In this document: piece by piece, positions 2,417-38,834 of the stretch
Layout: every line of letters starts with the position of its first letter
How positions within the stretch are numbered: the first letter of the stretch is position 1
From: Actinomycetes bacterium
GTDB lineage: Bacteria > Actinomycetota > Acidimicrobiia > Acidimicrobiales > Palsa-688
Assembly (NCBI GenBank): GCA_021811865.1
Contig: JAKAQB010000009.1
Location: 1-64,000 of the forward strand
Reading direction: 5' to 3'
DNA length: 64,000 nt
Program-made: the position numbers and the translations under genes
The notes under the pieces: generated by a model
Told to the model about the DNA's origin: nothing
Database searches by the model: none
The model's input: the letters and a program-made list of their open reading frames with translations, nothing else

Positions 2417-2474
2417 CCGGTCAGCTTGGCAGGTGGCTATGACAAGCGGCGGGAACCGGCGAGGGTCGCTCGCC

Positions 2475-2538
2475 CTGTGCCGTCTGGTCGCTCGCTCACG
2501 CTCGCTCTGTGCCGTCGGGTCGCTCGCTCACGCTCGCT
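2475..2538. repeat. 32-bp tandem repeat, two copies
   Basis: Two copies, 2475-2506 and 2507-2538, differ at one base. A partial third unit precedes them. The unit is built on an internally repeated GCTCGCTCACGCTCGCTC. It fills much of the gap between nurA and herA and overlaps the last codons and stop codon of nurA. Confidence 0.85.
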
Positions 2539-3496
2539 CCATCAGCCGGTGGCGGTCGGTGAAGGCACGGTCGCGCACCTCGGCAGGCACGCCGGCGCCG
2601 GCCAGGGCGGCGTCCACGTACAGCCACGCTTCGTCGCGCACCCACCGGGGGCAGGCCGCCAGCCGATCGGCGACGCTCAGCGGATACGGGTAGCCGGGGA
2701 AGGCGGCGTCGTCACAGAGCGCCGACAGGGCGCCGAGCGCCCCCGCCGGGTCGGCGTCGCCCGCCAGGTCGACGCGGAAGGCGAAGCGGGCGTCGGCGTC
2801 GAGGCGCGCCACGTAGACGGCGAGGCCGGGGCCGACGTCGGGGCGCGTGGTGGCGACCTTCACCCACCACAGGCTGCGCTCGCCGAGGCTGGCCTCCGCC
2901 TGGAGCTCGAGCGCTCCCACGAGTGGCGCCCCGCCCCGCGCCAGGGAGGAGTGCTTGGTGACCCCGGCGAGCAGCACGCCTCGGGACGCCGCCCGGACGA
3001 CAAGCGCCGACACCCACGCCGAAGGTATCCGCCAATCAGGCTGCAGGTCCCCGTCCACCAGCACCAGGCCACCCGGGTCGCAGCCGTCTACGGCCGCCGC
3101 CGTCGCCTGCCACTCGCCCCAGTCCCGGAGCAGGTTGACGTCGACGGCAGCGTCGGGCGCGGTGGGGGCCCCGGCGGCCGCCAGCGCGGCGCGCCCCTCG
3201 CCCAGCCCCAGCAGGTGGGCGGCGAGCACGCCCTCGTCCTCGAGCACGCAGGACCCGTCGCGCCAGCGGACCGTGGCTGCCCGGGTCACGTACAGCTGGA
3301 GGCATCGCGCGTCAGCGACGAGGGCCTGACCGCCGTCGACCGCCCACACGTCGACAGGCGGAGCCGCCCGGTGCAGCGGCCGGAGCTCCAGCGTCGGCTC
3401 GAACACGAGGTCGCTGCCCGTCGGGTCGAGCAGCCCATTGCCGCCGGCGGTCAGCAGCTCCGCGAGACGCCGGGCGGCCCCGTCCAGGTCGGCCAT
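2528..3496 (-). CDS. nurA: NurA-like nuclease
   Basis: A 322-residue protein that fits the NurA fold. An early acidic motif VDVWAVDGG has Asp54, a second strand LVLVDGDL carries Asp148/Asp150, and AGVTKHSSL supplies the conserved Lys181. NurA is a Mn-dependent 5'-3' exo/endonuclease that sits on the HerA ring and trims DNA ends. It is first in a two-gene unit with herA and divergent from ku, only 57 bases away. The last four codons and the stop (ATG GAG CGA GCG TGA) come from the 32-bp repeat, so the C-terminal tail was reshaped by repeat expansion. The start ATG at 3496 opens just before the conserved domain. Confidence 0.8.
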   Translation of the reverse strand: MADLDGAARRLAELLTAGGNGLLDPTGSDLVFEPTLELRPLHRAAPPVDVWAVDGGQALVADARCLQLYVTRAATVRWRDGSCVLEDEGVLAAHLLGLGEGRAALAAAGAPTAPDAAVDVNLLRDWGEWQATAAAVDGCDPGGLVLVDGDLQPDWRIPSAWVSALVVRAASRGVLLAGVTKHSSLARGGAPLVGALELQAEASLGERSLWWVKVATTRPDVGPGLAVYVARLDADARFAFRVDLAGDADPAGALGALSALCDDAAFPGYPYPLSVADRLAACPRWVRDEAWLYVDAALAGAGVPAEVRDRAFTDRHRLMERA

Positions 3497-3518
3497 CCCG
3501 GCAGCCTCGCACACGGCC

Positions 3519-3547
3519 GTGACGGCCCCTGTGGATTGGGGGACAAT
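3519..3547 (+). promoter_or_regulatory. Putative leaderless promoter of ku
   Basis: A -10-like GACAAT at 3542-3547 and a weak -35-like GTGACG at 3519-3524, 17 bases apart, place transcription start at about 3554, which is the A of the ku ATG. No Shine-Dalgarno sequence precedes this ATG. The element would share the 57-base gap with the nurA promoter. Confidence 0.45.
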
Positions 3548-3553
3548 GGGACC

Positions 3554-4381
3554 ATGCCCCGGTCGATCTGGAGCGGTTCTGTGAGCTTCGGCCTCGTCAA
3601 CGTGCCGGTGAAGCTCGTGACGGCGACGTCGCCGAAGGACATTCGCTTCAACCAGCTCCACGCCAACGACATGGGTCGCATCCAGCAGAAGCGGGTGTGC
3701 TCCCTCGACGGGGAGGAGGTCGACTACTCGGAGATAGCCAAGGGCTACGACCTGGGCGGCGGCAACTACGTCATGGTCGAGCCCGAGGAGCTGGCCGCCC
3801 TCGACCCGGGAGGGACGCGCTCGATCGACATCGAGGAGTTCGTCGACCTCGGCGACATCGACCCGCTGTACTTCGAGCGCAGCTACTACCTCGTGCCCGA
3901 CGAGCGCGCCGCCAAGCCGTACGCCCTGCTCGTAGAAGCCATGCAGCGGACGGGGAAAGTGGCGCTGGGCCGGTTCGTGCTGCGCACCAAGCAGTACTGG
4001 GTGACGTTGCGGGCTCGCGAAGGGGTGCTCGTGCTGGCCACGATGCTCTACGACGACGAGATCGTGAAGGTGGCCGACCTCGACGTGGCGACGACGGAGC
4101 GGACAGCGCCGAGCGACCGCGAGCTGTCGATGGCGGCGCAGCTCGTCGAGTCGCTGTCCAACGAGTTCGAACCGGCTCACTACCGCGACGAGCACCGGGA
4201 CAAGGTCCTCGCCCTCCTCGAGGCCAAGGCCGAAGGTCAGGTGCTCGTCGCGCCCGCGGAGCCGGCCCCCCCTGCTCAGGTCGTCGACCTCATGGCGGCC
4301 CTGGAGGCCAGCCTCGCAGCCGCCAAGGAGCGCGCCGGTGGTGCGGAGGCCCCGAGGGGCAGGCGGAAGGCCAGCGCGTGA
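3554..4381 (+). CDS. ku: Ku DNA-end-binding protein (NHEJ)
   Basis: A 275-residue bacterial Ku beginning with the hallmark MPRSIWSGSVSFGLVNVPVK. The Ku core ring covers about 1-250 and a basic tail (GRRKASA) ends the protein. The homodimer encircles broken DNA ends and recruits LigD for non-homologous end joining. The next gene, a LigD-type polymerase, overlaps it by 4 bases (GTGA), so the two are probably translated in a coupled way. The ATG at 3554 matches the family N-terminus exactly. No LigD ligase or nuclease domain is encoded in this window. Confidence 0.97.
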   Translation: MPRSIWSGSVSFGLVNVPVKLVTATSPKDIRFNQLHANDMGRIQQKRVCSLDGEEVDYSEIAKGYDLGGGNYVMVEPEELAALDPGGTRSIDIEEFVDLGDIDPLYFERSYYLVPDERAAKPYALLVEAMQRTGKVALGRFVLRTKQYWVTLRAREGVLVLATMLYDDEIVKVADLDVATTERTAPSDRELSMAAQLVESLSNEFEPAHYRDEHRDKVLALLEAKAEGQVLVAPAEPAPPAQVVDLMAALEASLAAAKERAGGAEAPRGRRKASA

Positions 4382-21989: not shown

Positions 21990-24900
21990 ATGGCTATCGC
22001 ACCGGAGCGGGTCGGCATCGGCATCCGTCGGGTGTTCACGACCCCCGGCCAGGACCCCTACGACACCGTCACCTGGGAGCGCCGGGACGCCCGGATCATC
22101 CACTGGTCCACCGGGGCGGTCGCCTTCGAGCAGCTGGGCGTCGAGGTGCCCTCCACCTGGAGCGTGAACGCCACCAACATCCTCGCGCAGAAGTACTTCC
22201 GGGGGACGCTCGGCACGCCCGAGCGGGAGTGGTCCCTGCGGCAGGTCGTGGACCGGGTGGTGGATGCGATCACCGCCTGGGGCCGGAAGGACGGCTACTT
22301 CGTCGACGACACCGAGGCGCGGACTTTCAGCGACGAGCTCCGGTACGCCATCATCCACCAGCGGGCCGCCTTCAACTCCCCGGTGTGGTTCAACATCGGC
22401 GTGGCCGGTGTGCCGCAGCAGGGCTCCGCCTGCCAGCCGTACGACGCCCCGGTGAGCACCCCGGAGGGCCTCGTGCCGATCGGTCGGCTGGTCGAAGAGG
22501 GAGCCGTTGGCACCAAGGTGTACGACGCCCACGGGGTGACGCGGGTCGTCGCCGTCAAGAGCAACGGCGTCAAGCCGGTGCTCCGCGTCCACACCCGCGT
22601 CGGTGTCACCCTCGACGTGACCGCCGACCATCTCGTGTGGCGGTCCGGGGGACCCGGTGGCAGTGCCTTCGTCCCCGCCGGCGAGCTGCGGCCCGGCGAT
22701 GCCGTCAGCTGGTGCCGCACGGAGAGCTACGGCACCGGTGAGATCACCCACCGGCGCCTGTCGGAGGCCGCCCTGGCCGGTTGGATCCAGAGCGACGGGG
22801 AGGTGGGTGCCGCCTCGCTCGAGGCACGCACGGTCACCCGGGACGAGCTGGCGTGGGTGTCTGCGGCGCTCCAGCGGGCCTTCCCGGCTGGGAGGCTCCT
22901 CGTCGACGAGGAGGCGGACCGTCGCCGGATCCGGGTCTCGGGGGACGACGGCCTGCGGGACTTCCTCCGTCGTTGGCAGTTGAGCACCGACGCGGCGGGT
23001 GCCGTTCCCGCATCCCTGTGGGGCGCGCCCCTTCCGATCGTCCGGGCCTACCTGCGGAGCCTGTTCCAGGCTCGCGGCTACGTCGCCGACCGCCGGGACG
23101 GGCCGGTGATCGGCCTGGACCTCGACAGCGAGGACGTGGCGCGCGCAACCCAGCTCCTCCTAGGTCGGTTCGGGATCCTCGCCGCCGTGGGCGACGACGA
23201 CGACGGCTGGTCGGTGGCCGTGCGAGACCTGGGTGACCGCTCGCGGTTCTGCGAGGAGATCGGCTTCGTCGACCGCCACAAGGCACTCGAGCTCGAGCAG
23301 TCGCTCGCCATGCCCGGCCGCTGCCTGCGCGACGTCGAGCGGCTCGAGATCGAGAGGATCGAGCCCCTCGGCGAGCGGCCCGTCTATGACATCCAGACCG
23401 AGAGCGGCGAGTACCTGAGCGGCAACGTCCGGGTCCACAACTGCTTCATCCTCTCGGTCGACGACTCGATGGACTCGATCCTCAACTGGTACACGGAGGA
23501 GGGGATCATCTTCAAGGGGGGCTCAGGCGCCGGGGTCAACCTGTCCAGGATCCGCTCCTCCAAGGAGGGCCTCCGCGGTGGTGGGACCGCATCCGGGCCG
23601 GTCAGCTTCATGCGCGGTGCCGACGCGTCGGCGGGGACCATCAAGTCCGGAGGCAAGACGAGGCGTGCGGCAAAGATGGTGATCCTCAACGTCGACCACC
23701 CTGACGTCCAGGACTTCGTCTGGTGCAAGGCGATCGAGGAGCGCAAGGCCCGCGCCCTCCGCGATGCCGGCTTCGACATGGACCTCGACGGCAAGGACAG
23801 CCATTCGATCCAGTACCAGAACGCCAACAACTCGGTCCGGGTCACCGACGAGTTCATGCAGGCGGTCCTCGACGACGCCGACTGGCACCTGCGCGCCGTC
23901 ACCGACGGGCGGATCCTGCAGACGGTGAAGGCCCGCGACCTCTTCCGGGAGATCGCTGAGGCCGCCTGGCAGTGCGCCGACCCGGGCCTGCAGTTCGACA
24001 CCACCATCAACAAGTGGCACACCGCCCCGCGCTCCGGGCGCATAAATGGAAGCAACCCATGCTCGGAGTACATGCATGTCGACAATTCAGCATGCAATCT
24101 GGCCAGCTTGAATCTCCTGGCATTCCTCGAGCCTGACGGGACCTTCGACGTCGAGGGGTTCCGGTCAACGGTGGAGGTGGCGTTCACCGCCCAGGAGATC
24201 ATCGTCGGCAACGCCGACTACCCCACCGAGAAGATCGCCGACAACTCCCGGCGGTTCCGCCAGCTCGGCATCGGCTACGCCAATCTCGGCGCACTGCTGA
24301 TGGCTCAGGGTCTGCCGTACGACTCGGACGCCGGCCGGGCATGGGCCGCGTCCCTCACCGCACTGCTCACCGGCCACGCCTACGCGACGTCCGCCCGCAC
24401 GGCCGCCAGGATGGGACCGTTCGCCGGGTACACGGAGAATCGTGAGGCGATGCTCGACGTGCTGCGCATGCACCGCGACGCGGCGGCGCACATCGACGAG
24501 GACCTGGTGCCGCCGGAACTGCTCTCCGCCGCCCAGGAGTCGTGGGACACCGCCGTGGAGGTCGCTCAGGAGTTCGGCGTCCGCAACGCCCAGGCGAGCG
24601 TTCTGGCTCCCACGGGATGCTTGGTGGGCGGATCGCTGGTCGCCACGGAGAGGGGGCTCGTGCGGCTCCGATCACTCGGGGACCCTGAAGGCGCCGAGTG
24701 GCAGGACCTCGGCATCGCCGTGCAGACCGACGATGGCCCTCGGGCGGCGACGAAGTTCTATGTCAACGGCCTGGAGCCTGTCGTCACGGTCACCACGGGC
24801 AGCGGCTACCGGATCCAGGGCACGCCGCAGCATCGGGTGAAGGTGGTCGACGAGCGTACCGGGGCGTGGGAGTGGAGGCGGTTCGCCGACCTCCGCGAGG

Positions 24901-27128
24901 GTGACCTCGTGCCCCTTGCCATGCGCCAGCTCGTCGGCGACCCGCGGGTGGTCCCCCTCCCGCCGCTGCCCGAGGCCCATTGGACAGGGGAGCACCAACA
25001 GGGCGTGACGCGGGTGATGACCCCGGAGCTCGCCGAGCTCGTCGGCTACTTCATGGGTGACGGTTCCCTCAACAGCAGCGGGCTGCGGTTCTGCGTCGCT
25101 TCGGGCGACCTCGACGTCGTGGCCCGCCTGCGTGATCTCGGAAAGGCGGCATTGGGGCTGGAGGCCGTGGTGATCCCCCGGCAGGGCTACGAGGAGGTCC
25201 GGTTCGACTCCGTGCGGCTGACCATGTGGTGGGAGGCCTGTGGCTTCGCCAAGCAGGCGGCCGGAGGCCGTCCGGGCGAGGGTGGCGAAGCCCACATTCC
25301 CGACGCCGTCCTGCACGCCAACGACCCCGAAACCTACGCCGCTTTCGTTCGGGGGCTGTTCGAGGCCTGCGGCGCCACCAGCGCCGGGTGCCCGACGCTC
25401 GAGAGCACGTCTGTGCAGATGGTGCGGGACGTTCAATCGATGTCGCTGGCGCTCGGCTACCCGACGACCCTCGCGGTGCGGGGACGGACCGACCGCTGGG
25501 AGCGGGGGACGGCACCACTGGCGGAGCTCCGCCTCCTGAGCCAAGCTGCGAACACCCGGTGGCTCGGGGAGATCGGCTTCATCGGCCGGCGGAAGAGCGC
25601 CGCTGTCCTGTCGGGCGACGCTGCGCAGGGCGCTCCGGGGGACTGGATCCCCCTGAGCCGGGAGTTGATCGACCGGCTGGCGCCGTACGACGACCGGCTG
25701 CGCAGCGTCCTTCTTCGCGAGCACTCCCGGGGTCGGGTCACCCGGCCAACGGCGCGAGAGCTCTTCGATCGCACCGGCGACGTCGAGCTCGGGCGCCTCC
25801 TCGGGTTCTTCTTCGACCGGATCGAGGCGGCGACGCTCGGCGACGAAGAGCTCACCTACGACCTGTCCGTCCCGGACACCGTCACGTACGTGGCCAACGG
25901 TTTCGTCAGCCACAACACCATCGGTCTCCTGATGGACTGTGACACGACAGGCATCGAGCCCGATCTGGGCTTGGTGAAGCTCAAGAAGCTGGTCGGCGGC
26001 GGCACGATGTCGATCGTCAACCAGACGGTGCCTCGGGCACTCACGCGACTCGGCTACACCGGCTCGCAGACTGCCGCCATCACGGCGTACATCGACGAGC
26101 ACAAGTCGATCGTCGGCGCGCCCCACCTGCGATCCGAGGACCTTCCGGTGTTCGCCTGTTCCATGGGCGACAACACCATCCACTACCGGGGCCACATCCG
26201 CATGATGGGAGCGGTGCAACCGTTCATCTCGGGCGCTATCTCCAAGACGGTCAATGTCCCAGAGGAAGTGACCATCGAAGACGTCGAGCAGCTCAACATC
26301 GAGGCCTGGCAGCTCGGGCTGAAGGCGGTTGCCATCTACAGGGACAACTGCAAGGTTGCGCAGCCACTCGCCACCGCCAAGAAGGACGCCGAGAAGGTGT
26401 CGGACGCAGCAGCCCACGATGCGGAGCTGGCGCGCAAGGTGGCCGACCTCGAGAAGGCGCTCGCCAACCAGACGACGGTTGTCGTCAAGCAGCCCATCCG
26501 GCAGCGCATGCCCCGCCGGCGCCGGTCCAACACCTTCGCGTTCCGTGTGGCGGATTGCGAGGGTTACGTCACCGTTGGCGAGTACGACGACGGGCGGCCG
26601 GGAGAGGTGTTCGTGAAGGTGGCCAAGCAGGGCTCGACCCTCGCCGGGATCATGGACGCCTTTGCCGTCTCGGTCAGCCTGGGGCTGCAGCACGGTGTGC
26701 CGCTGGCGACGTACGTGCGCAAGTACACCAACATGCGCTTCGAGCCGGCGGGCATGACCGACGACCCCGACCTGCGGATCGCCCAGTCCCTCGTCGACTA
26801 CATCTTCCGGCGGCTGGCCGTCGACTACCTGCCGTACGACGAGCGCTTGGAGCTCGGTGTCCTGACGACGGGGGAGCGGACGCAGCAGACCCTGCCCGGC
26901 GTGGAGGAGTCCACCACCCCAAACCTGTCCCTGGTCACCGACCGCGACTACGACGCCGGCGACGACGATGGCCCGCAGCTGCGGCTCGCGCCCCTGCCTC
27001 GGGAGGTGGCCAAGCCGGTCCCTGTCGAATCCGACGCCCCGTACTGCTTCCAATGCGGCGTGCAGATGCAGCGGGCGGGCAGCTGCCACGCCTGCCCGAG
27101 CTGCGGGACGACCAGCGGCTGCTCGTGA
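21990..27128 (+). CDS. nrdJ: B12-dependent ribonucleotide reductase with two inteins
   Basis: A 1712-residue precursor of class II ribonucleotide reductase. The mature enzyme would be about 942 residues after two inteins (residues 148-484 and 877-1309) are removed. Extein landmarks are NSPVWFNIGV, the redox Cys485 in CFILSVDDSMDSIL, the radical-site triad N689-P-C691-S-E693 (NPCSEYM), and APTG joined to TIGLLMDCDTTGIEPD. The C-terminus has a Cys-rich tail (CFQCG, CHACPSCG) that passes electrons. It makes deoxynucleotides using adenosylcobalamin, with or without oxygen. Its stop lies in a TGAG repeat. A short stretch around the active site (24040-24117) uses AT-ending codons unlike the rest. 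Confidence 0.96.
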   Translation: MAIAPERVGIGIRRVFTTPGQDPYDTVTWERRDARIIHWSTGAVAFEQLGVEVPSTWSVNATNILAQKYFRGTLGTPEREWSLRQVVDRVVDAITAWGRKDGYFVDDTEARTFSDELRYAIIHQRAAFNSPVWFNIGVAGVPQQGSACQPYDAPVSTPEGLVPIGRLVEEGAVGTKVYDAHGVTRVVAVKSNGVKPVLRVHTRVGVTLDVTADHLVWRSGGPGGSAFVPAGELRPGDAVSWCRTESYGTGEITHRRLSEAALAGWIQSDGEVGAASLEARTVTRDELAWVSAALQRAFPAGRLLVDEEADRRRIRVSGDDGLRDFLRRWQLSTDAAGAVPASLWGAPLPIVRAYLRSLFQARGYVADRRDGPVIGLDLDSEDVARATQLLLGRFGILAAVGDDDDGWSVAVRDLGDRSRFCEEIGFVDRHKALELEQSLAMPGRCLRDVERLEIERIEPLGERPVYDIQTESGEYLSGNVRVHNCFILSVDDSMDSILNWYTEEGIIFKGGSGAGVNLSRIRSSKEGLRGGGTASGPVSFMRGADASAGTIKSGGKTRRAAKMVILNVDHPDVQDFVWCKAIEERKARALRDAGFDMDLDGKDSHSIQYQNANNSVRVTDEFMQAVLDDADWHLRAVTDGRILQTVKARDLFREIAEAAWQCADPGLQFDTTINKWHTAPRSGRINGSNPCSEYMHVDNSACNLASLNLLAFLEPDGTFDVEGFRSTVEVAFTAQEIIVGNADYPTEKIADNSRRFRQLGIGYANLGALLMAQGLPYDSDAGRAWAASLTALLTGHAYATSARTAARMGPFAGYTENREAMLDVLRMHRDAAAHIDEDLVPPELLSAAQESWDTAVEVAQEFGVRNAQASVLAPTGCLVGGSLVATERGLVRLRSLGDPEGAEWQDLGIAVQTDDGPRAATKFYVNGLEPVVTVTTGSGYRIQGTPQHRVKVVDERTGAWEWRRFADLREGDLVPLAMRQLVGDPRVVPLPPLPEAHWTGEHQQGVTRVMTPELAELVGYFMGDGSLNSSGLRFCVASGDLDVVARLRDLGKAALGLEAVVIPRQGYEEVRFDSVRLTMWWEACGFAKQAAGGRPGEGGEAHIPDAVLHANDPETYAAFVRGLFEACGATSAGCPTLESTSVQMVRDVQSMSLALGYPTTLAVRGRTDRWERGTAPLAELRLLSQAANTRWLGEIGFIGRRKSAAVLSGDAAQGAPGDWIPLSRELIDRLAPYDDRLRSVLLREHSRGRVTRPTARELFDRTGDVELGRLLGFFFDRIEAATLGDEELTYDLSVPDTVTYVANGFVSHNTIGLLMDCDTTGIEPDLGLVKLKKLVGGGTMSIVNQTVPRALTRLGYTGSQTAAITAYIDEHKSIVGAPHLRSEDLPVFACSMGDNTIHYRGHIRMMGAVQPFISGAISKTVNVPEEVTIEDVEQLNIEAWQLGLKAVAIYRDNCKVAQPLATAKKDAEKVSDAAAHDAELARKVADLEKALANQTTVVVKQPIRQRMPRRRRSNTFAFRVADCEGYVTVGEYDDGRPGEVFVKVAKQGSTLAGIMDAFAVSVSLGLQHGVPLATYVRKYTNMRFEPAGMTDDPDLRIAQSLVDYIFRRLAVDYLPYDERLELGVLTTGERTQQTLPGVEESTTPNLSLVTDRDYDAGDDDGPQLRLAPLPREVAKPVPVESDAPYCFQCGVQMQRAGSCHACPSCGTTSGCS
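22431..23441 (+). other. Intein 1 of NrdJ (337 residues)
   Basis: It begins with Cys148 (CQPYDAPVSTPEGL) and ends VRVHN before Cys485, so splicing would use Cys1 and Cys+1. Block B is the VTADH histidine motif near residue 211; block F is VYDIQTESGEYLSG. A LAGLIDADG-type endonuclease sits inside (AGWIQSDGEV near 262; LRSLFQARGYV near 353). The second motif reads QARG where the catalytic Asp is expected, so the endonuclease is probably dead. The insertion lies directly before the redox-active cysteine. Confidence 0.93.
24618..25916 (+). other. Intein 2 of NrdJ (433 residues)
   Basis: It begins with Cys877 (CLVGGSLVATERGL), has block B GTPQHRV, and ends NGFVSHN before Thr1310. The endonuclease core has LAELVGYFMGDGSL (Asp kept) near 1013-1026, but the second motif is FVRGLFEACG, with Cys in place of the catalytic Asp. 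It splits the conserved sequence APTG and TIGLLMDCDTTG. Because both splice ends are intact, self-splicing should still work. Confidence 0.93.
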
Positions 27129-36107: not shown

Positions 36108-38834
36108 GTGTTGCCGCCGCCGGATGCCTTCGGGCGCGGCGTCGTCGTGACCGGCGACGCTGCGCCTCCCGCGCCGTGGTCGTCGGCGCCGGCCGTTGTG
36201 GTGGACGAGGCGACGCTCGACTCCCCGGGAGCGGTGGTGGGCCAGTTGCACGAGGCCTGGGCCAGGCGGCGCCCGGTCACTGTGCGGCTCTTCGTCGACC
36301 CGGCGCGCTTTCGGGTGCCGGTCCCGGTGACAGCGGAGCCATGGACGCTCACCGCCGACTTCGAGCCGTTGGCTGACCGCCTCCAGTTCCTGGTCTGGGC
36401 CAACACCTACGACGCTCGCGGGGTGGCGGGGGCCGGCGGGGGGGAGCCGGTGTGGTGGTGGGCCCGCAAGGCGGGGCGCCTCGGTGCCCTACCGGTCGGG
36501 GCCGGCAGTGCCGGAGATGTGGTCCTCCCCGATGGGCGGCAGGCTTGGATCGACGCCGGCCCGCGCCGCACCTGGCCTGCCGGCTCGATCGACGGCGCCG
36601 TGGTGGTCCACGCCGAATCCGTCGAGCGCGACCGGCTCACCGTCGCCCCTTCTCTCGTAGGACCGCAGGGGGTGGCGGCCGGTGACCTGGCGCCGGACCA
36701 GCTGGCTGCGGTCACGAGCGACGCCGGTGCCGCCCGGGTGATCGCGCCGGCCGGATCAGGCAAGACCAGGGTCCTGACCGAGCGCCTCCGGCACCTTCTC
36801 GTCGACCGCGGATGGGAGCCGGACTGCGTGCTGGCCGTCGCATACAACAAGAAGGCGCAGGAGGAGCTCGACCAGCGCACGGCCGGAACCGGCGCCCGGA
36901 CCCGAACGCTCAACTCGCTCGGCCTGGCCGTCCTCACCCGCGCCCGGGGGGCTGCGCCTGCGGTCCTCGCCGAGCGGGACGTCCGGCGGGTGGTCGAGCG
37001 CCTGGCTCCGCCGGCGCGCCGGCGGAGCAACACCGACCCCATCGCTCCGTACCTCGAGGGGCTGTCCGCTGTCAGGCTCGGCCTGCGGGACCCCGGCGAC
37101 GTGGAAGCCTCACGCGACGACGTGCCCGGGTTGGCGGTGATGTGGCCCCGGTTCCGCGCTGCGTTGGCCGAGGCCGGAGCGGTGGACTTCGACGAGCAGG
37201 TCTACGGCGCCGTCGAGGCGCTGCTGCGTGACGGGAGCCTGAGGGCGGAGATGCGCCTCGGGTGCCGTCACCTACTCGTGGACGAGTTCCAGGACCTCAC
37301 GCCGGCGCACGTCTTGCTCCTACGCCTCCTGGCCGGCCCGGCCCTCGACTGCTTCGGCGTCGGCGACGACGACCAGGTCATCTACGGGCACGCCGGCGCC
37401 GACCCGCGGTTCCTGCTCGAGTACGACCGGCTGTTCCCCGGCGCCGCCGACCACCGCTTGGAGGTCAACTACCGGTGCCGTCCAGCGGTCGTCACCGCCG
37501 CGGTAGCCCTGCTGGGGCACAACCGGCAGCGGGTGGACAAGACCATCAGGGCCTCCCGCCCGCCAGCGCCTGCGGGATCGCCGCCGGCGCTGGACATCCA
37601 CCTGCACGGCCGTGGTGAGGGCATCACCTCCCTGGTCGAGGTCGTCCGCGCCCGGCTCGCGCTCGGGGCGGCAGCGGGCGACATCGCCGTGCTCGCGCGA
37701 GTGAACGCCCTGTTGCTCGGGCCGGTCATCGCCCTCGGCGAGGCAGGAGTCGCGGTGCAGTCGGCCGTCAGCCCGGACGTCCTCGAGCGCACCGGCATGC
37801 GCGCCGCCCTGGCTTACCTGCGCATCGCTGTTGCCGATGGGGCCATCTCTTCCGGTGACCTGGTCGAAGTCCTGCGACGCCCGAGCCGGGGCCTGCCCCC
37901 GTGGTTCACGGATCGGCTCCGCCGCAGGAAGGCTTGGTCGATCCCGGCGCTCGAGGGCATCGGGGCCACGATCCCTCACAAGGACAGCGCGAGGATCGAG
38001 CGCTTCGTGGACGACATCGTCGCCCTGCGCGCTGCGGCCACCCAGCTCGACACCGCCGGGCTGCTCCGATTCGTCCAGGATGACGTCGGCCTCGGTGGAG
38101 CGATGAACCTGCTCGACGCCAGCCGCGGCGGCGAAGGCTCCAGCCACGTCGACGACCTGGAGGCCCTCGAGGCAGTGGCCGCCTTGCATCCCACACCAGA
38201 CGGCTTCGACGCCTGGCTGCGCACCGGGCTCGCCCGGCCGCCGCAGCCGTGCGGGGTGACGGTGGCGACCGTGCACCGGGTGAAGGGCATGGAGTGGGAT
38301 CACGTCGTCGTCGCAGCGGTCAACGCCGGCATCGTCCCTCACCGCTTGGCGGAGGACGTGGAGGAGGAGCGGCGGGTCCTCCACGTGGCGCTCACCCGCG
38401 GCCGCGAGACCGTCACCCTGCTCGCCGATCGGAGCCGGCCGTCACCCATGCTGGACGAGCTCCGGGGGATCGTCGGATCGGATCCGAAGGCGGTGCCGGC
38501 GGGTGCCGCAGCGCGTGGAGGCGGGGGGGCGGGACCCCGGGTTTCCTCGCCCGCCACTCGCGTCCCCCTGCCTGTCTCAGGTGCTGGCCGCAGCGACCCA
38601 GCGCTCGAGGCGGCGCTGCGCTCGTGGCGCAAGCAGCGGGCGTCAGCGGACGGTGTGCCCGCTTACATGGTCTTCGCCGATCGGACCCTGCTGGCCATTG
38701 CTGCTCGCCGACCGGCGAACCTTGTCGCGCTCCGGCGGGTGGATGGCATCGGCCCCGCAAAGCTCGAGCGCTACGGCGCGGAGATCATCGCTTTGGTCTC
38801 AGCGATGGGCTGCGGTACCGGCGGCGGCGCGTAG
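36108..38834 (+). CDS. UvrD2-like superfamily-1 helicase with HRDC domain
   Basis: A 908-residue SF1A helicase. Walker A APAGSGKTR at about 213-221, DEFQDLTPAH at about 390, the 2A motif VHRVKGMEWDHVVV near 722, and VALTRGRETV complete the motor. The C-terminus (about 835-905) is an HRDC domain (VFADRTLLAIAARRPANL, then VDGIGPAKLERYG). This is the UvrD2 layout of mycobacteria, a 3'-5' helicase in DNA repair. Residues 1-190 form an extra N-terminal region I do not recognise, with LFVDPARFRVPVPVTAEPW and LVWANTYDARG. GTG start. Confidence 0.93.
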   Translation: MLPPPDAFGRGVVVTGDAAPPAPWSSAPAVVVDEATLDSPGAVVGQLHEAWARRRPVTVRLFVDPARFRVPVPVTAEPWTLTADFEPLADRLQFLVWANTYDARGVAGAGGGEPVWWWARKAGRLGALPVGAGSAGDVVLPDGRQAWIDAGPRRTWPAGSIDGAVVVHAESVERDRLTVAPSLVGPQGVAAGDLAPDQLAAVTSDAGAARVIAPAGSGKTRVLTERLRHLLVDRGWEPDCVLAVAYNKKAQEELDQRTAGTGARTRTLNSLGLAVLTRARGAAPAVLAERDVRRVVERLAPPARRRSNTDPIAPYLEGLSAVRLGLRDPGDVEASRDDVPGLAVMWPRFRAALAEAGAVDFDEQVYGAVEALLRDGSLRAEMRLGCRHLLVDEFQDLTPAHVLLLRLLAGPALDCFGVGDDDQVIYGHAGADPRFLLEYDRLFPGAADHRLEVNYRCRPAVVTAAVALLGHNRQRVDKTIRASRPPAPAGSPPALDIHLHGRGEGITSLVEVVRARLALGAAAGDIAVLARVNALLLGPVIALGEAGVAVQSAVSPDVLERTGMRAALAYLRIAVADGAISSGDLVEVLRRPSRGLPPWFTDRLRRRKAWSIPALEGIGATIPHKDSARIERFVDDIVALRAAATQLDTAGLLRFVQDDVGLGGAMNLLDASRGGEGSSHVDDLEALEAVAALHPTPDGFDAWLRTGLARPPQPCGVTVATVHRVKGMEWDHVVVAAVNAGIVPHRLAEDVEEERRVLHVALTRGRETVTLLADRSRPSPMLDELRGIVGSDPKAVPAGAAARGGGGAGPRVSSPATRVPLPVSGAGRSDPALEAALRSWRKQRASADGVPAYMVFADRTLLAIAARRPANLVALRRVDGIGPAKLERYGAEIIALVSAMGCGTGGGA

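Follow-up and report, generated by a model that had tools for sequence, protein, structure and literature searches.

Two class 1 inteins with degenerate-looking homing endonucleases in a single actinobacterial nrdJ gene

A 64,000-nucleotide stretch of an Actinomycetes bacterium (assembly GCA_021811865.1, contig JAKAQB010000009.1, forward strand; 'the window' is this whole stretch) carries an open reading frame, 21990..27128, that we confirmed as a class II, adenosylcobalamin (AdoCbl)-dependent ribonucleotide reductase (RNR), NrdJ, with two class 1 inteins. Very probably these inteins homed into the gene at two different sites, kept splicing and lost both homing endonucleases to decay. After translation, an acyl shift at Cys1, transfer to Cys+1 or Thr+1 and Asn cyclization would excise each intein and join the flanks, yielding a working 942-amino-acid (aa) enzyme. 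The endonucleases would have decayed in this lineage, probably after fixation, with splicing retained through selection for active enzyme. The inteins would sit at the redox cysteine and in the APTG/TIG loop (slashes mark insertion points) because homing targets conserved codons, where imprecise intein loss is impossible. We document the anatomy of the inserts, empty sites in relatives, conservation across the intein families, predicted folds, the absence from each intein of one catalytic acid and faster divergence of the endonuclease parts.

21990..27128, forward strand: nrdJ open reading frame, 1712 aa, with two in-frame inteins (single open frame; Pfam and NCBIfam matches)
21990..22430, forward strand: N-extein, NrdJ aa 1-147, ending ...QQGSA (PF08471 at aa 41-124)
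22431..23441, forward strand: intein 1 (site A), 337 aa, aa 148-484, Cys1...VHN/C, before Cys485 (TIGR01445 above cut-off; predicted fold)
22731..23330, forward strand: LAGLIDADG region of intein 1, approximate bounds (motif 1 acid D122 kept, motif 2 acid lost, R215)
23073..23075, forward strand: codon of intein 1 R215 (E or D in 126 of the 135 family rows that are not gapped here)
23442..23444, forward strand: codon of Cys485, which is +1 to intein 1 and by homology the NrdJ redox cysteine
23442..24617, forward strand: middle extein, NrdJ aa 485-876, containing Cys691 (SNPCSE) and Cys702
24618..25916, forward strand: intein 2 (site D), 433 aa, aa 877-1309, Cys1...SHN/T, before Thr1310 in APTG/TIG (PF14890 above cut-off; predicted fold)
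25005..25607, forward strand: LAGLIDADG region of intein 2, approximate bounds (retains D148, with Cys at position 251)
25368..25370, forward strand: codon of intein 2 Cys251 (Asp in 132 of 145 family rows; Cys in this intein alone)
25917..27125, forward strand: C-extein, NrdJ aa 1310-1712 (TSCPD at aa 1524-1610)
27045..27122, forward strand: C-terminal six-cysteine array, Cys1686, 1689, 1699, 1702, 1705 and 1711

Both inserts have the anatomy of class 1 inteins, which carry Cys or Ser at position 1, TxxH in block B, a C-terminal Asn and Cys, Ser or Thr at +1, usually with a penultimate His. All these sequence features are present in each, with the splice residues intact. Predicted models of both inteins have a Hint fold and a LAGLIDADG fold, as judged by matches to PDB structures and, for the latter, to PF14528. 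The models match endonuclease-bearing VMA inteins, namely PhoVMA, whose endonuclease is degenerate, and the active TliVMA (7qst, 7qss, 7qsu); at the sequence level, neither intein matched a PDB chain at E 1e-3. Intein 1 passes TIGR01445 (28.5 versus a cut-off of 24.5), and intein 2 passes PF14890 (43.3) and TIGR01443 (25.0). The Pfam barrel domain has intein 1 at its start and intein 2 in its interior, from which the unspliced precursor can soundly be expected to be inactive. The first-pass annotation had reported two inteins with full splice ends and predicted two excised products; the inteins stand, and the calculated masses of the predicted products are 36.6 and 47.1 kDa in place of its 38 and 48 kDa.

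Joined without the inserts, the exteins form a 942-aa NrdJ that family matches, alignment to a solved enzyme and six C-terminal cysteines identify as a class II RNR with a cysteine-rich domain (NrdJd-like). Pfam matches on the open reading frame are Ribonuc_red_2_N, Ribonuc_red_lgC, TSCPD, LAGLIDADG_3 and Intein_splicing, and NCBIfam adds a vitamin B12-dependent reductase and intein_Nterm. As proposed earlier, intein 1 directly precedes a redox cysteine: the match to 1xje_A, a solved B12-dependent reductase, starts with Cys485 opposite residue 134 of that chain, one of the redox-active cysteine pair (C134/C333) of the Thermotoga maritima enzyme. Cys691 (SNPCSE) is presumably the radical cysteine, by homology. 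The C-terminal cysteines are spaced 3-10-3-3-6, as are Cys920/923/933/936/939/945 of S. nassauensis NrdJd in an excerpt of its description (PMC5704485). By its GC content (N-extein 0.698, intein 1 0.723, middle extein 0.669, intein 2 0.706, C-extein 0.669; whole window 0.730) neither intein is conspicuous as recently acquired foreign DNA, and the neighbouring genes (acyl-CoA dehydrogenase, TetR, Smr) look chromosomal.

Close relatives have both sites empty. Scanning genomes with the joined exteins returned at least 592 matched stretches, 586 of them confirmed, and the best 80 were kept (L001-L080); the ranking favours uninterrupted genes, so the scan establishes that nearby empty sites exist and is not a measure of how common they are. 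The joined sequence matches uninterrupted NrdJ over residues 1-942, the nearest (L001) being 87% identical, and a motif scan found both junctions uninterrupted in 80 of 80 loci. Outside this count, L081-L092 were also scanned, with ten undecided and two showing the site-A motif. Both inteins are in-frame inserts absent from these homologues, and their flanks rejoin. The first-pass annotation had predicted as much, and the case it had named against itself, the insert forming part of the normal coding sequence of homologues without inteins, does not occur in L001-L080. Nor was an intein 1 match found in the genome of L001 or in the next three genomes (0 of 4).

Intein carriers were gathered through two protein searches by intein similarity (best 120 of 1784 and best 120 of 1714), which gave 235 relatives and, with this one, a sample of 236 NrdJ proteins. 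A tree built with FastTree from 182 NrdJ rows combined 122 of these proteins (extein identity >0.72, >820 aligned) with 60 of the 80 loci. This NrdJ and protein P0001 are sisters (support 100); the empty-site L001 joins next (98), followed by three proteins with a site-D and without a site-A intein (99). Occupancy of both sites is patchy on this tree, most rows of which were chosen as intein carriers, with at least 39 changes at site A (62 carriers) and at least 35 at site D (89 carriers).

Both homing endonucleases look degenerate and the splicing parts conserved, judging from sequence comparison. An acid in both LAGLIDADG motifs marks an active endonuclease, and neither intein has it, the motif 2 acid being replaced in each (E to R in intein 1, D to C in intein 2). 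Numbered as in the present inteins, positions 122 and 215 each carry an acid in 120 of 132 site-A members of >330 aa, as do 148 and 251 in 128 of 143 site-D members of >400 aa; this intein 1 and that of P0001 have D and R, and at site D this intein 2 has D/C and P0001 D/G. Between this NrdJ and P0001, 917 of 942 extein residues are identical, as are 98/100, 37/37, 102/105 and 37/38 in the splicing segments (97-100%), 187/200 and 178/200 in the endonuclease segments and 54/65 in the intein 2 tail. Most site-A family members are about 20 aa longer than intein 1, whose gaps fall within the endonuclease region. We regressed pairwise endonuclease identity on splicing-domain identity for members of >330 aa at site A (132/145) and >400 aa at site D (143/145), using pairs with <0.9 splicing identity. 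The mean residual of intein 1 (-0.163, sd 0.034) was the lowest of 132, with P0001 next (-0.151), and that of intein 2 (-0.046, sd 0.029) the ninth lowest of 143. We infer that both endonucleases are dead. Such a double loss fits a late homing cycle, for which a stage of decayed endonuclease in a retained intein is predicted in the excerpted text of PMC4071816. A link between endonuclease loss at the two sites was considered and rejected: site-D endonucleases looked dead in 5 of 17 proteins whose site-A intein is a dead or mini form and in 5 of 36 whose site-A intein is live (not significant, Fisher p 0.26; 53 of 54 proteins with both inserts, one of odd length being left out).

Several points weigh against this account. 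Intein 1 alone falls below the Pfam Intein_splicing cut-off (23.9 versus 35.8 bits) and intein 2 below that of TIGR01445 (19.4 versus 24.5), and we infer excision of both inteins from sequence. Eight site-D family inteins have lower residuals than intein 2. Acid-less members do score lower at site A (12 versus 120, p 1.6e-5) and site D (15 versus 128, p 2.1e-5) in Mann-Whitney tests, although the rows are non-independent and uncorrected for kinship, so these p values overstate significance. The retained motif 1 acids could possibly support residual nicking. If the altered motif 2 residues were tolerated and both endonucleases cut, the inteins would still be mobile, a reading favoured by the motif 1 Asp kept in both and by families that are mostly live-looking, patchy and partly horizontal. 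We consider it highly improbable, given non-acids at motif 2 in both inteins of both this NrdJ and P0001 and the lowest endonuclease residual of its family in intein 1. That the inserts have lost splicing, with the gene turning into a pseudogene, is hardly credible: the frame is free of stops, the splice residues are intact and the splicing segments are nearly invariant relative to P0001 while the endonuclease parts drift.

The first-pass annotation had also suggested that splicing acts as a redox switch. In such a gate, splicing of intein 1 would stall when Cys1, Cys485 or both are oxidized, or when a disulfide forms with Cys95, Cys274 or Cys298, lowering deoxynucleotide triphosphate (dNTP) supply under oxidative stress, which we regard as very unlikely. 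Cys1 and Cys+1 are oxidizable, the latter (Cys485) corresponds by homology to the redox cysteine of the enzyme itself, and Mycobacterium smegmatis DnaBi1, from a two-intein protein, sets a precedent with a non-conserved trap cysteine (excerpts of PMC6195587). A stall would often matter, because few other RNRs were seen in 11 genomes of unstated completeness (four neighbours and seven site-A carriers); a second large-subunit gene was found in three (one a short piece), NrdB in two and NrdD in none, which often leaves NrdJ as the sole reductase seen. Against the gate, no partner cysteine is conserved in the site-A family. The non-catalytic Cys95, 274 and 298 occur in 21, 2 and 1 of 145 site-A rows, and the common family cysteines 164 (122/145) and 259 (95/145) are absent from intein 1. 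The -3 extein residue is Gly, leaving intein 1 without the mark of redox inteins, a conserved or -3 partner for the catalytic cysteine; 4 of the 132 site-A members of >330 aa have no cysteine other than Cys1. Near relatives live with empty sites, which makes a gate dispensable, and Cys+1 is an enzyme requirement, since empty-site homologues have it too. The proposed switch thus gained no specific support and stays conjectural; the lack of a conserved partner weighs against a trap without deciding the matter, because the trap partner in DnaBi1 was itself non-conserved according to the same excerpts. There is likewise little chance that both inteins, their endonucleases dead, have been domesticated into a double gate on dNTP supply, with intein 1 sensing thiol oxidation via the cysteine that the enzyme itself oxidizes during catalysis, intein 2 delaying completion of the active-site loop and NrdJ waiting for a reducing cell. 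The redox idea is testable, as the +1 residue of intein 1 is a catalytic cysteine, a feature that all site-A carriers share.

Two inteins in one NrdJ are not rare. Within the 236 proteins, chosen by intein similarity, inserts lie at extein positions 147 (143, with three more placed a few residues off), 215/219 (14), 353/354 (120), 539 (145) and 648/649 (36), with three single outliers. One distinct site is occupied in 69 proteins, two in 114, three in 47, four in 5 and five in 1 (P0130), so that 167 of 236 have inserts at two or more sites. Site A and site D are each filled in 145 proteins, and both in 54. The first site-A alignment column is Cys in 137 of 145 rows, and in seven more the junction is the same, the aligner having opened the gap one residue too late. 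Mini-inteins of 135-152 aa, without an endonuclease, make up 10 of the 145 site-A inserts. In an even draw of 395 genomes from the class of L002/G002 (Acidiferrimicrobium), intein 1 matched in 43 at E 1e-3, seven of them strongly (>=57% identity) and each adjoining a Ribonuc_red_lgC match; intein 2 matched in 48, 15 strongly (>=57% identity). Both inteins occurred in two genomes (G198, G382), and matches in the remaining genomes had at most 46% identity.

Splicing-domain identity tracks extein identity moderately (Spearman 0.34 at site A, 141 proteins; 0.56 at site D, 133 proteins). Mean splicing identity at site A is 0.704 where extein identity is 0.5-0.6 versus 0.669 at 0.6-0.7, a pattern consistent with some horizontal movement. 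The site-D intein of P0206, named as a deltaproteobacterium, is 62% identical to intein 2 with an extein only 53% identical, which suggests transfer between phyla. A phage origin was rejected for either intein: intein 1 had no relative in viral_contigs or phage records, and intein 2 had none in viral_contigs and only remote matches (23-32%) in five phage records, four of which are annotated, none of these as a reductase.

At the presumed radical-bearing cysteine, two insertion points lie one codon apart, one on each side of it, SNP/C (93 of 236 proteins) and SNPC/S (27 of 236), and they occur together in 0 of 236. P0002, P0009 and P0051 are among the proteins with an insert at site 354, and P0003 and P0008 among those with one at site 353. 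Example inserts are about 400 aa long at SNP/C and 146-154 aa at SNPC/S. In the SNPC/S arrangement the radical cysteine (-1) adjoins intein Cys1, and a vicinal disulfide is possible.

Both inteins belong to widespread families and are ordinary in kind. The position of intein 1 is typical, since inteins favour conserved positions (according to the excerpt of PMC2814812) and the Aquifex aeolicus R2 (NrdB) intein lies between metal ligands. That LAGLIDADG intein likewise sits between catalytic residues of an RNR, and differs in being a single intein in a class I small subunit, between iron ligands (PMC8772380, in part). The excerpted PMC4071816 already lists rir1 intein alleles in Actinobacteria; these RIR1 inteins (rir1-b, -g, -k, -l, -m) are likewise reductase inteins, with some accessions under two alleles, and unlike them both endonucleases of this NrdJ have lost an acid. 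PhoVMA also lost catalytic acids and was kept, but has an archaeal host, lost active-site residues in both motifs and was biochemically tested, as excerpts of PMC8966425 describe. M. smegmatis DnaBi1 and DnaBi2 are similarly two inteins in one DNA-metabolism protein with an oxidizable catalytic cysteine; DnaBi1 differs as a class 3 intein with an identified Cys48 partner, described there as an oxidative stress sensor (PMC6195587, in part). Among the papers listed by literature searches combining intein with NrdJ, RIR1, ribonucleotide reductase or Actinobacteria, no title or abstract opening dealt with this gene. It offers a clear case of two inteins in one gene with homing apparently lost and splicing parts conserved, next to a close relative in which neither site is filled, and is useful for testing the homing cycle.

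Elsewhere in the window, a UvrD-like helicase with a C-terminal HRDC domain (36108-38834, forward strand) has no intein family among its Pfam matches. A 651-aa Ku-domain open reading frame (2426-4381, forward strand) matches Ku only at residues 387-569, and its long additional N-terminal stretch may reflect a wrongly called start or a fusion.
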